Source: Thermoleophilia bacterium | GTDB taxonomy: Bacteria > Actinomycetota > Thermoleophilia > Miltoncostaeales > Miltoncostaeaceae | Direction: 5' to 3' | Length of the DNA stretch: 64,000 bases | NCBI GenBank assembly: GCA_017882545.1 | Contig: JADGPG010000082.1 | Location: 1 to 64,000 of the forward strand | Shown here: positions 15,874 to 54,577 of the stretch, piece by piece | Layout: each line of letters begins with the position of its first letter | How positions within the stretch are numbered: position 1 is the stretch's first letter | Position numbers and translations under genes: made by a program | Notes under the pieces: model-generated | Database searches by the model: none | What the model was told of the DNA's origin: nothing | Seen by the model: only the letters and a program-made list of their open reading frames with translations

Positions 15874-16170
15874 GTGCCGGATTACGCGGTAATCGCCCTT
15901 GGGGGCAAGCAGTATCGAGTGAAGACGGGCGAGCAGCTGCTTGTGGACCGTCTGGCGCAGGAGCCGGGGGATACGTTCTCTCCAACCGTCCTCGCGACCG
16001 GCACCGCCGGTGGCGCGTTGAGTGACGGTGGAACCGTGAACGCCACGGTGGAAGAGCATCTGTTGGGGCCGAAGCTCCTGGTGTTCACCTACCGGGCCAA
16101 GAAGGATTCAAAGCGCAAGCGCGGGCACCGCTCGCGGTTGTCACGCGTGCGCATCGACTCGATCGCGTAG
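15874..16170 (+). CDS. rplU: 50S ribosomal protein L21
   Basis: Large-subunit protein that binds 23S rRNA; 98 residues, usual size. The N-terminus [20 protein letters not shown] is the family signature, with basic C-terminal [18 protein letters not shown] 15874 is chosen over an in-frame start at 15721 because GGGGA lies just upstream and the extra residues would be unlike L21. Followed 11 bases later by rpmA. Confidence 0.97.
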
Positions 16171-16181
16171 GGGAAGCCGAG

Positions 16182-16448
16182 ATGGCACACAAGAAGGGTG
16201 GCGGCTCCAGCCGCAACGGTCGTGACTCCGCCGCACAGCGGCTTGGCGTGAAGGTCTTCGCCGGTCAGGTCGTCCCGGCAGGATCGATCATCGTGCGCCA
16301 GCGCGGCAGCGAGTTCCACCCCGGTGACGGGGCAGGAATGGGTCGCGACTACACAATCTTCGCCAAGGTCTCCGGCCGCGTCGAGTTCACCAGCGGCCGC
16401 AAGGGCCGTCGGATCTCCGTCCAACCGGAGGTCGCGGCCTCCGCCTAG
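16182..16448 (+). CDS. rpmA: 50S ribosomal protein L27
   Basis: 88 residues, beginning [19 protein letters not shown]; the N-terminal tail reaches toward the peptidyl transferase centre in the family. [20 protein letters not shown] and [17 protein letters not shown] are diagnostic. No N-terminal prepeptide of the Firmicutes type is present. It lies between rplU and obgE, the conserved order. Confidence 0.98.
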
Positions 16449-16459
16449 CCGGAGCCGCT

Positions 16460-17404
16460 GTGCCCTTTACCGATCGCGCACGTATCCACGTTGAAGGCGG
16501 ACGTGGCGGCCACGGCGGACTGTCGTTCCGTCGCGAAGCCCGTGTGCCCAAGGGTGGACCCGACGGTGGCAACGGCGGGCGCGGCGGCGAGGTGATCCTC
16601 GTCGCCGATTCCCAGGTGGTCGATCTGTCGCGGTTCCGGCACGCGGTGCATCACACGGCGGCGGCGGGCGGCGGCGGGGAGCGCCGGGCCCGGCACGGGC
16701 GCAACGGCGCCGACGTCGAGGTGGCCGTGCCTCCCGGCACCCGCGTCATCCGCGACGATGCGGTGATCGCCGACCTCCGGCACGACGGCGACCGGGTCGT
16801 GGTCGCCCGCGGCGGCAACGGTGGGGTCGGCAACAAGGTCTTTCGGTCGTCGACCCATCAAGCGCCGCGCGAGACGGTTCCGGGCGGTCCGGGCGACATG
16901 ACCTGGCTCACGCTCGAGCTGCGGCTCCCCATCGAGGTCGCGATCGTCGGGATGCCCAATGCGGGCAAGAGCGCGCTGTTGGTCGCCCTGACGGGCGCCA
17001 CGGCCGTCGTTGCGCCCTACCCGCAGTCCACGCGCGAGCCGGCCTTCGGCCCGCTCGTGGACGACGAGCTGGAGATTCATCTCGTGGCCGATCTGCCCGG
17101 GGTCGGCACCGACGGTCAGGCCCGGCCGGACGGTTTCCTGACCCAGTGCGAACGCGCGCGGGTGATCGTGCACTGCATTGCGGCCGACGACGAGGCGGCC
17201 CCGGCGGCCGAACGGCGGGCGCTCGTCGACGCGGCGATCGCCCCGTATGTCTCCGCCGAGGCACGTCGTATCGTTGTGGCGACGTTCTCGGACCCGTCCG
17301 CGCCGCCGGAATGGGCCGACGTGGCAGTCGACGCGGTCTCGGGGGCGGGCATCGAAGCAGTGCGCGAGCGGATCCTGCGCCCCCCGGAGGGCCTCAGCAA
17401 GTGA
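16460..17404 (+). CDS. obgE: Obg-family GTPase with an eroded G domain
   Basis: Ribosome-assembly GTPase by family and position; 314 residues, short. The glycine-rich Obg fold is intact (GGRGGHGGLSFRREA; KGGPDGGNGGRGG). In the G domain, G1 GMPNAGKS (164-171) is present, G2 is YPQSTREPAFG instead of the usual YPFTT, and G3 is DLPG (211-214). The switch II stretch after it lacks the customary IEGA/GLG residues. At the G4 position the sequence is IVVATFSDPS, with no NKxD guanine-specificity motif. No C-terminal OCT domain follows. The GTG start is 11 bases after rpmA; the stop overlaps proB. Identity as Obg is secure; GTPase competence is in doubt. Confidence 0.9.
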   Translation: MPFTDRARIHVEGGRGGHGGLSFRREARVPKGGPDGGNGGRGGEVILVADSQVVDLSRFRHAVHHTAAAGGGGERRARHGRNGADVEVAVPPGTRVIRDDAVIADLRHDGDRVVVARGGNGGVGNKVFRSSTHQAPRETVPGGPGDMTWLTLELRLPIEVAIVGMPNAGKSALLVALTGATAVVAPYPQSTREPAFGPLVDDELEIHLVADLPGVGTDGQARPDGFLTQCERARVIVHCIAADDEAAPAAERRALVDAAIAPYVSAEARRIVVATFSDPSAPPEWADVAVDAVSGAGIEAVRERILRPPEGLSK

Positions 17405-18510
17405 GTGTGATCGTGGCAAAGGTCGGGTCGTCGACGCTCGTCGATGCGGACGGGCGCCTGCGCGAGGACATCCTCGCGGCGCGCGTCCGCGATCTGGTCC
17501 GGCTGCGGCGTCTCGGATACCGGCCGGTGCTCGTCAGCAGTGGGGCGATCGCCTGCGGGCTTGGACGGCTCGGCATCCGCGAGCGCCCGACGGCGCTCCC
17601 GGACCTGCAGGCCGCATCGGCGGTGGGGCAGGGCGTGCTGTTCCAGCGTTACCTGGAATTGTTTACCGCCCAGGCGGTCACGCCGGCCCAGGTGCTGTTG
17701 ACGTCCGAGGATCTCAAGCGTCGCGGAAGCTATATCAACGCACGTACCACGTTGACGCGGCTGCTCGACCTCGGTGTGATCCCCGTGATCAACGAGAACG
17801 ACACGACGGCGACCGACGAATTGACGTTCGGCGACAACGACGTCCTGGCGGCCCAGGTCGCGATACTGATGTCGGCGAGGTGGCTCGTGCTGTTGACCGA
17901 TCGGGACGGGCTGTTCGGGGTCGGTGAGGATGGGCGGCCGGAGTTGATCGGCGACGTCGCGCCCGCGACGCGCCCGCAAGATGTCGCGCTGGCGGACATG
18001 CACGGCTCAGGGCTCGGGCGCGGCGGAGTGTCATCGAAGATCGCCGCGGCCACGATGGCGACGGCCGCAGGCGTGACCTGCGTGATCGCCTCGGGCCGGT
18101 CCGCGGGGGTGCTCGCGGCGGTCGCGTCCGGGCATCGCGTCGGGACCCGATTCGCTCCGTCCGAACGGCGCGAGAGCGCGTTCAAGCTGTGGCTGAGGTA
18201 TGCAAAGCCGTCACTCGGGACCATCCGTGTGGACGCTGGCGCCGCCCGCGCGCTGCGCCGCCAGGGGACCTCCCTGCTGCCGGTCGGCGTGACCGCCGTC
18301 GACGGGGTGTTCGGGGTAGGCGACGCCATCGACGTTGTCGACGAGGATTCCCGGGCGGTGGGGAAGGGCATCAGCGCATTCGCGGCCGACGACCTGCGCC
18401 AGGTGGCCGGGCTCAAGACCGACGCGGTACGGCGCCTGCTGCCGGAGGCCGGTGCTGAGGTGGTCCATCGGGACCAATTCGTCCTGGCCGACCCGCCCGC
18501 GATCCCGTGA
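17401..18510 (+). CDS. proB: Glutamate 5-kinase
   Basis: Phosphorylates glutamate in the first step of proline synthesis; 369 residues. The amino-acid-kinase domain begins IVAKVGSSTLV and includes VLVSSGAIACGLGRLG, VIPVINENDTTATDEL and FGDNDVLAAQVA. A C-terminal PUA domain spans roughly 275-360 (GTIRVDAGAARALRRQGTSL). GTG 17401 overlaps the obgE stop by four bases; an earlier in-frame start at 17146 would lie inside obgE. proA, the usual partner, is not in the window: nadD follows directly. Confidence 0.95.
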   Translation: MSVIVAKVGSSTLVDADGRLREDILAARVRDLVRLRRLGYRPVLVSSGAIACGLGRLGIRERPTALPDLQAASAVGQGVLFQRYLELFTAQAVTPAQVLLTSEDLKRRGSYINARTTLTRLLDLGVIPVINENDTTATDELTFGDNDVLAAQVAILMSARWLVLLTDRDGLFGVGEDGRPELIGDVAPATRPQDVALADMHGSGLGRGGVSSKIAAATMATAAGVTCVIASGRSAGVLAAVASGHRVGTRFAPSERRESAFKLWLRYAKPSLGTIRVDAGAARALRRQGTSLLPVGVTAVDGVFGVGDAIDVVDEDSRAVGKGISAFAADDLRQVAGLKTDAVRRLLPEAGAEVVHRDQFVLADPPAIP

Positions 18511-53683: not shown

Positions 53684-54577
53684 GTGGACAAGCAGGACTC
53701 ATACCGCTCCGGACTGATTGCGCTTGCCGGGCGGCCGAACGTCGGCAAGTCCACGTTGGCGAATGCGCTTGCCGGCGCACACGTCGCGGCCGTGTCACCC
53801 CGGCCCCAGACCACCCGCCGTCGGATCTCGGCGGTCGTGCATGGTGACGGCTGGCAGGCGGTGCTCCAGGACATTCCCGGCTACCAGACACCGCGAGACG
53901 CCCTGACCGGGCGGATGCAGCACACGGTCGACCAGACGCTCGCCGATTGCGACGCGGTGATCTTCGTGGTCAACGCGGCCGAGGCGATCGGCGGCGGCGA
54001 CCGGTTTATCGCCGAGCGCGTACGTGCCGTCCAGCGCCCAACGATCGTGGTCGTCAACAAGACCGATGCCGTCGCACCGGCGGCGATCGCCCGCGCGATT
54101 ACGGGTGTCGCGGACCTGATACCGGACTTCGTGGCCGTCCATCCGGTGAGCGCGTTGACCGAAGACGGGCTGGCGGCGCTGCGTGCGGAGCTTGCCGGGC
54201 TGCTGCCCGAGGGCCCCGCCTACTTCCCGCCCGACCAGTCGACCGATCAGACCCGCGACGAACGCGCCGCGGAACTGATCCGAGAGGCCGCCCTCGAGCG
54301 GCTGCGCGACGAGGTGCCGCATGCGCTCGCCGTGTCGATCGAGGAACTTGGCGCCGATCGCGGTCGGATCCACGTCGAGGCGGCGTTGCTGGTCGACCAC
54401 GAATCGCAGAAGGGGATCGTGATCGGCAAGGGCGGACAGATGATTCGGGACATCGGCACCGCTGCCCGTGCGACGCTGAGCGAGGCGTGGGGCGCACCGG
54501 TTCACCTGGATCTGACGGTGAAGGTCCGCCGCGGCTGGCGCCAAGACGACTCGATGCTCAACCGACTCGGCTTCTAG
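53684..54577 (+). CDS. era: GTPase Era
   Basis: Binds the 3' end of 16S rRNA during 30S assembly; 297 residues from GTG 53684. G1 GRPNVGKSTLANALAG, G2 SPRPQTTRRRI, G3 DIPG, G4 NKTD in VVVNKTDAVAP, and the C-terminal KH domain with GIVIGKGGQMIRDIG. GGAG lies eight bases before the GTG; an in-frame ATG 53624 gives an N-terminus rich in Arg/Ala unlike Era. Unlike obgE in this window, all G motifs are intact. Confidence 0.96.
   Translation: MDKQDSYRSGLIALAGRPNVGKSTLANALAGAHVAAVSPRPQTTRRRISAVVHGDGWQAVLQDIPGYQTPRDALTGRMQHTVDQTLADCDAVIFVVNAAEAIGGGDRFIAERVRAVQRPTIVVVNKTDAVAPAAIARAITGVADLIPDFVAVHPVSALTEDGLAALRAELAGLLPEGPAYFPPDQSTDQTRDERAAELIREAALERLRDEVPHALAVSIEELGADRGRIHVEAALLVDHESQKGIVIGKGGQMIRDIGTAARATLSEAWGAPVHLDLTVKVRRGWRQDDSMLNRLGF

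Follow-up and report, generated by a model that had tools for sequence, protein, structure and literature searches.

Known Obg proteins

Canonical Obg/CgtA proteins (TIGR02729), among them ObgE of Escherichia coli, Bacillus subtilis Obg (1lnz) and Thermus thermophilus Obg (1udx), combine an Obg domain with a G domain that carries a P-loop and a DxPG motif, features which they share with the protein described here. For E. coli, PMC4028186 describes the Obg domain as a mimic of A-site tRNA at the peptidyl-transferase centre. It further reports that 50S binding is strengthened by guanine nucleotides, ppGpp especially, and that 50S binding and 70S splitting persist in ObgE without its C-terminal domain. 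According to PMC6982127, the ObgE exchanges N283I and D286Y, on alleles that also carry K268I, abolish nucleotide binding, yet these mutants are viable with the altered gene as sole copy; the P-loop mutant G166V does not support viability. Our reading of the K-12 gene places N283 to D286 at NKID, G166 at the first glycine of the P-loop and T193 at the threonine of G2. The behaviour of these E. coli mutants suggests that Obg can do its essential job with no nucleotide bound. Many proteins bind guanine although they lack NKxD, which is thus no strict requirement; the motif is absent from 43.3% of 298 guanine-binding complexes in PMC11594714. In searches of the open-licence literature we found no published account of an Obg from the order Miltoncostaeales, which belongs to the little-studied actinobacteria.

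An Obg gene from Miltoncostaeales

The window, i.e. the whole stretch of 64,000 nucleotides that was analysed, encodes an Obg protein behind the genes for ribosomal proteins L21 and L27, which is the usual arrangement for obg. The features of the locus are the following (residue numbers refer to the Obg protein).

15874..16170, + strand: rplU (ribosomal protein L21), neighbour; synteny by tblastn in four order genomes
16182..16448, + strand: rpmA (ribosomal protein L27), neighbour; synteny by tblastn in four order genomes
16460..17404, + strand: coding sequence of obg (cgtA), 314 aa with GTG as start codon; no other Obg was found in the genome
16460..16927, + strand: N-terminal Obg domain, conserved, residues 1-156 (PF01018 match at residues 5-156)
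16949..16972, + strand: G1 / P-loop GMPNAGKS, intact, residues 164-171
17018..17050, + strand: G2 YPQSTREPAFG, residues 187-197; invariant Thr191 retained, Phe189 lost
17090..17155, + strand: G3 with the rewritten switch II, DLPGVGTDGQARPDGFLTQCER, residues 211-232; shortened by three residues, without IEGAxxGxGLG and with Arg222 and Gln229 as new residues
17282..17293, + strand: G4 position, TFSD replacing NKxD, residues 275-278; Asp278 retained
17327..17335, + strand: G5 position, VDA replacing xSA, residues 290-292
17407..18510, + strand: downstream proB-like gene, named from the sequence as read

The obg gene is a single unbroken frame of 314 aa, and its coordinates and motif readings proved exact. 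Four other genomes of the order also showed L21, L27 and Obg located together with RNase E/G-like, NadD-like and RsfS-like genes (tblastn). The protein scored 167.4 bits against PF01018 (GTP1_OBG; cut-off 27) and 56.6 bits against MMR_HSR1, which places the G domain directly behind the Obg domain, in agreement with the predicted fold. It shares 41% identity with ObgE and the rplU-rpmA neighbourhood with canonical Obgs, and shows the glycine-rich Obg domain, the fused G domain and the rplU-rpmA adjacency of the Obg/CgtA family. With 249.7 bits against the Obg_CgtA equivalog model TIGR02729 it stays below the curated cut-off of 280.25. Among the features of a canonical Obg GTPase the P-loop GxPNxGKS and DxPG are present; the switch II IEGAxxGxGLG...H and N/T/S-K-x-D are absent. 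The searches detected no further Obg in the source genome.

Distribution of the altered form

We screened 299 genomes of the class, comprising 42 Miltoncostaeales genomes from one family with 12 genera and 257 genomes from outside the order. The altered Obg was present in 40 of the 42 order genomes, and the two that gave no match have completeness values of 73% and 90%. None of the 42 reached the TIGR02729 cut-off of 280.25 bits (best score 275.8). The cut-off was passed by 235 of the 257 genomes outside the order, where 240 genomes had a match at 1e-40, five of the matches falling below the cut-off, and 17 had none. The altered Obg is an order-wide trait and not the peculiarity of a single genome. 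An alignment of Obg proteins from the clade and a search for a second, canonical copy had both been proposed along with the original prediction; the altered G domain was common to the whole order, and no second canonical Obg was found in the source genome or elsewhere in the order.

Column counts and the tree below refer to 38 of the 41 order rows, as L039, L040 and L153 were left out as partial, and outgroups are 24 class sequences from outside the order. The intact Obgs of the order are 304-317 residues long, save one that is cut by a contig start, compared with 395-484 residues for the 24 outgroups, which end in a C-terminal extension that is shorter in four of them. Length and alignment indicate that the intact order Obgs lack this extension, a point that the original prediction had missed.

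Two records from this survey deserve a remark of their own. L080, which is titled Acidobacteria bacterium REEB500, has an Obg of the order type (68% identity), and its title looks wrong. In the Obg of L025 (G017:C123) some ten residues are missing that follow SFRREKY in the glycine-rich Obg domain of its genus mate L008, which is either an assembly error or a real deletion.

Phosphate-binding motifs and switch II

The phosphate-binding half of the G domain was well preserved. P-loop residues G164, P166, N167, G169 and K170 were each found in 38 of 38 order sequences, and the residues of DxPG were likewise invariant (38/38). This bears out the original reading that Obg fold and G1 are intact, together with the fold match. 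The description of G2 as abnormal was overstated, in that the invariant threonine T191, which corresponds to ObgE T193, was retained in 37 of 38 order sequences. What G2 has lost is Phe189, found in all 24 outgroups and in one of the 38 order sequences.

Switch II behind DLPG is altered, as had been noted from the sequence of the window, and the span from DxPG to ER measures 22 residues in the order versus 25 elsewhere. Arg222 and Gln229 occurred in 38 of 38 order sequences; the corresponding residues are Leu and His throughout the 24 class outgroups. We extended the comparison to 68 Obgs of other groups, a set of loci picked by similarity to the query and not at random, and the rewritten switch II occurred in none of them (0/68; the count leaves out 12 loci taken as the order's own, three of which were kept in the alignment as guides). 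A switch II of 25 residues and the histidine were found in all 68, with Leu in 66 and Met in two.

Motifs for base recognition

At the G4 position the window protein reads TFSD. The original prediction that NKxD is absent holds for the Asn and the Lys, which are lost, but Asp278 is still there, so that the motif is not wholly gone. We found no [NTS]KxD anywhere in the protein, and neither an equivalent of NKxD elsewhere in the domain nor a frameshift; the frame is open throughout. The equivalence of the G4 position was taken from multiple alignments bridged by the TKCD of genus g9, the pairwise alignment with ObgE placing gaps in this region. TKCD was present in 18 of 18 readable members of g9. 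The other 21 readable order sequences, from 11 genera, are without the G4 lysine, five having Arg and 16 neither Lys nor Arg. The G4 aspartate was retained in 30 of the 38 order sequences used for column counts and is gone in eight of 39 readable ones, and those eight, from six genera, are also without Lys or Arg. A further change that had been overlooked before is found in G5, where Ser is replaced by Asp at position 291 of the window protein; Ser291 was present in 18 of 38 order sequences (altered in 20) versus 24 of 24 outgroups.

The tree, whose backbone is poorly supported, gave three changes of the G4 lysine state, one outgroup Arg counted. Constraining all 21 order rows without Lys to a single clade was not rejected (p-AU 0.42), and both a single and a repeated loss of the G4 lysine are compatible with the tree.

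The missing NKxD does not by itself stand out: only 26 of the 68 Obgs from other groups read exactly NKxD, with TKxD in 21, SKxD in 12 and other motifs in nine. These nine fall outside [NST]KxD and comprise four TKxE, two SKxE, two SMxD and one SRxD (loci L136, L145, L130, L083, L085, L113, L126, L133 and L134). TKxE was seen in Saccharibacteria and Nomurabacteria, SMMD in Erysipelotrichaceae and Bacilli, and SKxE and SRxD elsewhere. The drifted Obgs of the TKxE and SMxD kinds depart from NKxD as the order does, but have a full-length switch II with Leu or Met and His. Because drift of G4 is common and a short switch II occurred in none of the 68, the rewritten switch II and not the missing NKxD is, as far as the sequences tell, the exceptional part of this protein and is special to the order within this sample.

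Sequence constraint and predicted fold

Both domains are under purifying selection, with omega below 1 in 12 of 12 order pairs (0.02 to 0.56). The G domain was less constrained than the Obg domain in each of these pairs, some of which have sequences in common, so that the 12 comparisons are not independent; four outgroup pairs showed no consistent direction between the domains. The mean identity of the G domain fell short of that of the Obg domain by 12.9 points in order members outside g9, 4.2 points in g9 and 5.2 points in the class outgroups. Of 90 query positions that were 95%-conserved in the outgroups, 58 are shared by 90% or more of the order sequences and the remaining 32 fall below that level.

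An AlphaFold2 model of the window protein, which may be drawn toward canonical Obgs as these were included in the input alignment, had a mean pLDDT of 86.4 and a pTM of 0.66, with low values at residues 185-190 next to G2. It matched GTPBP5 (Z 24.4, 306 residues aligned, rmsd 5.3), B. subtilis Obg (21.7, 291, 9.7), ObgE on the pre-50S particle (21.5, 312, 4.9) and Thermus Obg (20.9, 295, 11.2), and the high rmsd values probably reflect differing domain orientations. The mitochondrial proteins GTPBP10 and GTPBP5, Obg-domain factors of large-subunit assembly according to PMC10693566, share the fold, but their sequence similarity to the order Obg is lower (GTPBP10 E 7e-22) and they were modelled with bound guanine nucleotide.

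Possible function of the remodelled G domain

We consider it probable that this protein is the true working Obg of Miltoncostaeales, namely an Obg-domain factor of 50S assembly whose G domain is remodelled and depends weakly or loosely on nucleotides. By analogy with E. coli ObgE it would act in late 50S-subunit assembly and in anti-association, with the Obg domain inserted at the peptidyl-transferase centre; orthology and the conserved Obg domain suggest that it binds the 50S subunit. The order's ancestor would have lost the C-terminal extension and exchanged IEGAxxGxGLG...H for a shorter segment with the new Arg and Gln. P-loop, G2 threonine and DxPG, i.e. the half that binds phosphate and Mg, would have stayed under selection, while the base-recognition half, with Lys and Asp of G4 and Ser of G5, would have loosened or disappeared in the majority of genera, that of the window among them. 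The TKCD of g9 is a standard variant, and the ancestor of the order may therefore have been fully guanine-specific. Nucleotide binding is likely to be weak or loosely base-specific as a consequence, ribosome binding would depend less on GTP and ppGpp than elsewhere, and the protein might function mainly through its Obg domain. The Phe at the Lys position in the window's genus, together with the kept Asp, could bind a purine through stacking and hydrogen bonds. Since ppGpp strengthens 50S binding in E. coli (PMC4028186) and Rel/SpoT was found in 40 of the 42 order genomes, a ppGpp input could persist.

The order parallels the ObgE mutants in that the P-loop is invariant and G4 is free to change. 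N283I and D286Y (PMC6982127) lie in the same G4 motif, but these are laboratory point mutants with a normal switch II, whereas the change in the order is natural, order-wide, accompanied by a new switch II and read from sequence. Compared with canonical Obgs, the order form has a shorter switch II, altered G4 and G5, no C-terminal extension and a TIGR02729 score below the cut-off. YchF/Ola1 offers a GTPase-like precedent for relaxed base specificity, but belongs to another family, an ATPase by the title of the report, and has other domains. That the window protein is less strict in its nucleotide use or serves as a scaffold had been suggested from the start, and explanations of this family fit best, given the order-wide pattern, the lack of a second Obg and the viability of ObgE NKxD mutants in PMC6982127. 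Somewhat doubtful, though possible, is the reading that the order's only Obg no longer depends on guanine recognition and is a 50S scaffold or loose NTPase, with its switch rebuilt around Arg222 and Gln229 and a weaker response to GTP and ppGpp. If true, a ribosome-assembly GTPase that is essential in other bacteria would have been freed from guanine recognition in an entire order. With an altered site whose forms run from TKCD to the complete loss of G4, the order represents a natural series for probing the need for GTP, and its Obgs also offer a test of the role of switch II.

It is just as conceivable that the newly fixed Arg and Gln work in a fully active GTPase. NKxD is missing from so many guanine-binding complexes in PMC11594714 that the order Obg may be an ordinary GTPase with a non-canonical G4, in which TFSD binds the base through its Thr and Asp and stacks its Phe on it, and a switch II with Arg222 and Gln229 provides an alternative route of hydrolysis. 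The G4 aspartate in 30 of 38 sequences, the invariance of Arg222, Gln229, P-loop and DxPG, and the frequent TKxD and SKxD in other Obgs (33/68) are in line with this. However, eight sequences from six genera have neither Lys or Arg nor Asp at G4, and 20 of 38 have a changed G5; the usual base contacts therefore cannot be general in the order, and we regard an ordinary GTPase as unlikely.

A G domain that is a decaying relic drifting toward loss, in a protein acting through its Obg domain only, would agree with the faster G domain in 12 of 12 order pairs, with the larger identity deficit outside g9 (12.9 versus 5.2 points in class outgroups) and with the wide variation of G4 and G5. This seems quite improbable to us, as G-domain omega stays below 1 in every pair, there is no variation in P-loop, DxPG, Arg222 or Gln229, and every intact order member still has its G domain. 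An artefact of assembly, frameshift or contamination might be suspected from a draft genome such as G000 (2.27 Mb, 130 contigs, 92.87% complete, 4.54% contamination). The same form was, however, found in 39 other genomes, with 12 genera in all and including assemblies of one contig (G014) and three contigs (G025), the frame is open throughout and omega is low. Bad sequence, already judged unlikely in the original prediction, can be practically dismissed.

Other GTPases of the order

We also inspected Der and Era. Der was found in 38 of the 42 order genomes, with NKWD as its second G4 in 30 of 30 loci read. Era was found in 39 of 42, and the 30 loci read all have the Asn and the Asp in G4. Both showed only single-residue changes of G4, and a general decay of ribosome GTPases was rejected as an explanation; the presence of Rel/SpoT in the 40 genomes mentioned above gave no support to the idea that a lost ppGpp system was the cause. 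The window's own Era (53714-54523) keeps NKTD and had been used as a control for sequence quality. This control does not extend to the order as a whole, where many Era proteins read NQxD, and NKCE occurs in the first G domain of Der in four genera including the window's.

The Lys to Gln exchange in Era G4, giving NQVD or NQID, was seen in genus g9 and in some members of g12 (L196, L199, L201-L208, L210-L213, L217, L219, L220, L222 and L223). In Der/EngA, the first G domain reads NKCE and not NKCD in nine of 30 loci, from g1, g3, g6 and one member of g7 (L173, L174, L181-L183 and L185-L188), of which L181 belongs to the window's own genome (G000:C81:31952-33232). Another g7 member has NKSD in the first G domain of Der.
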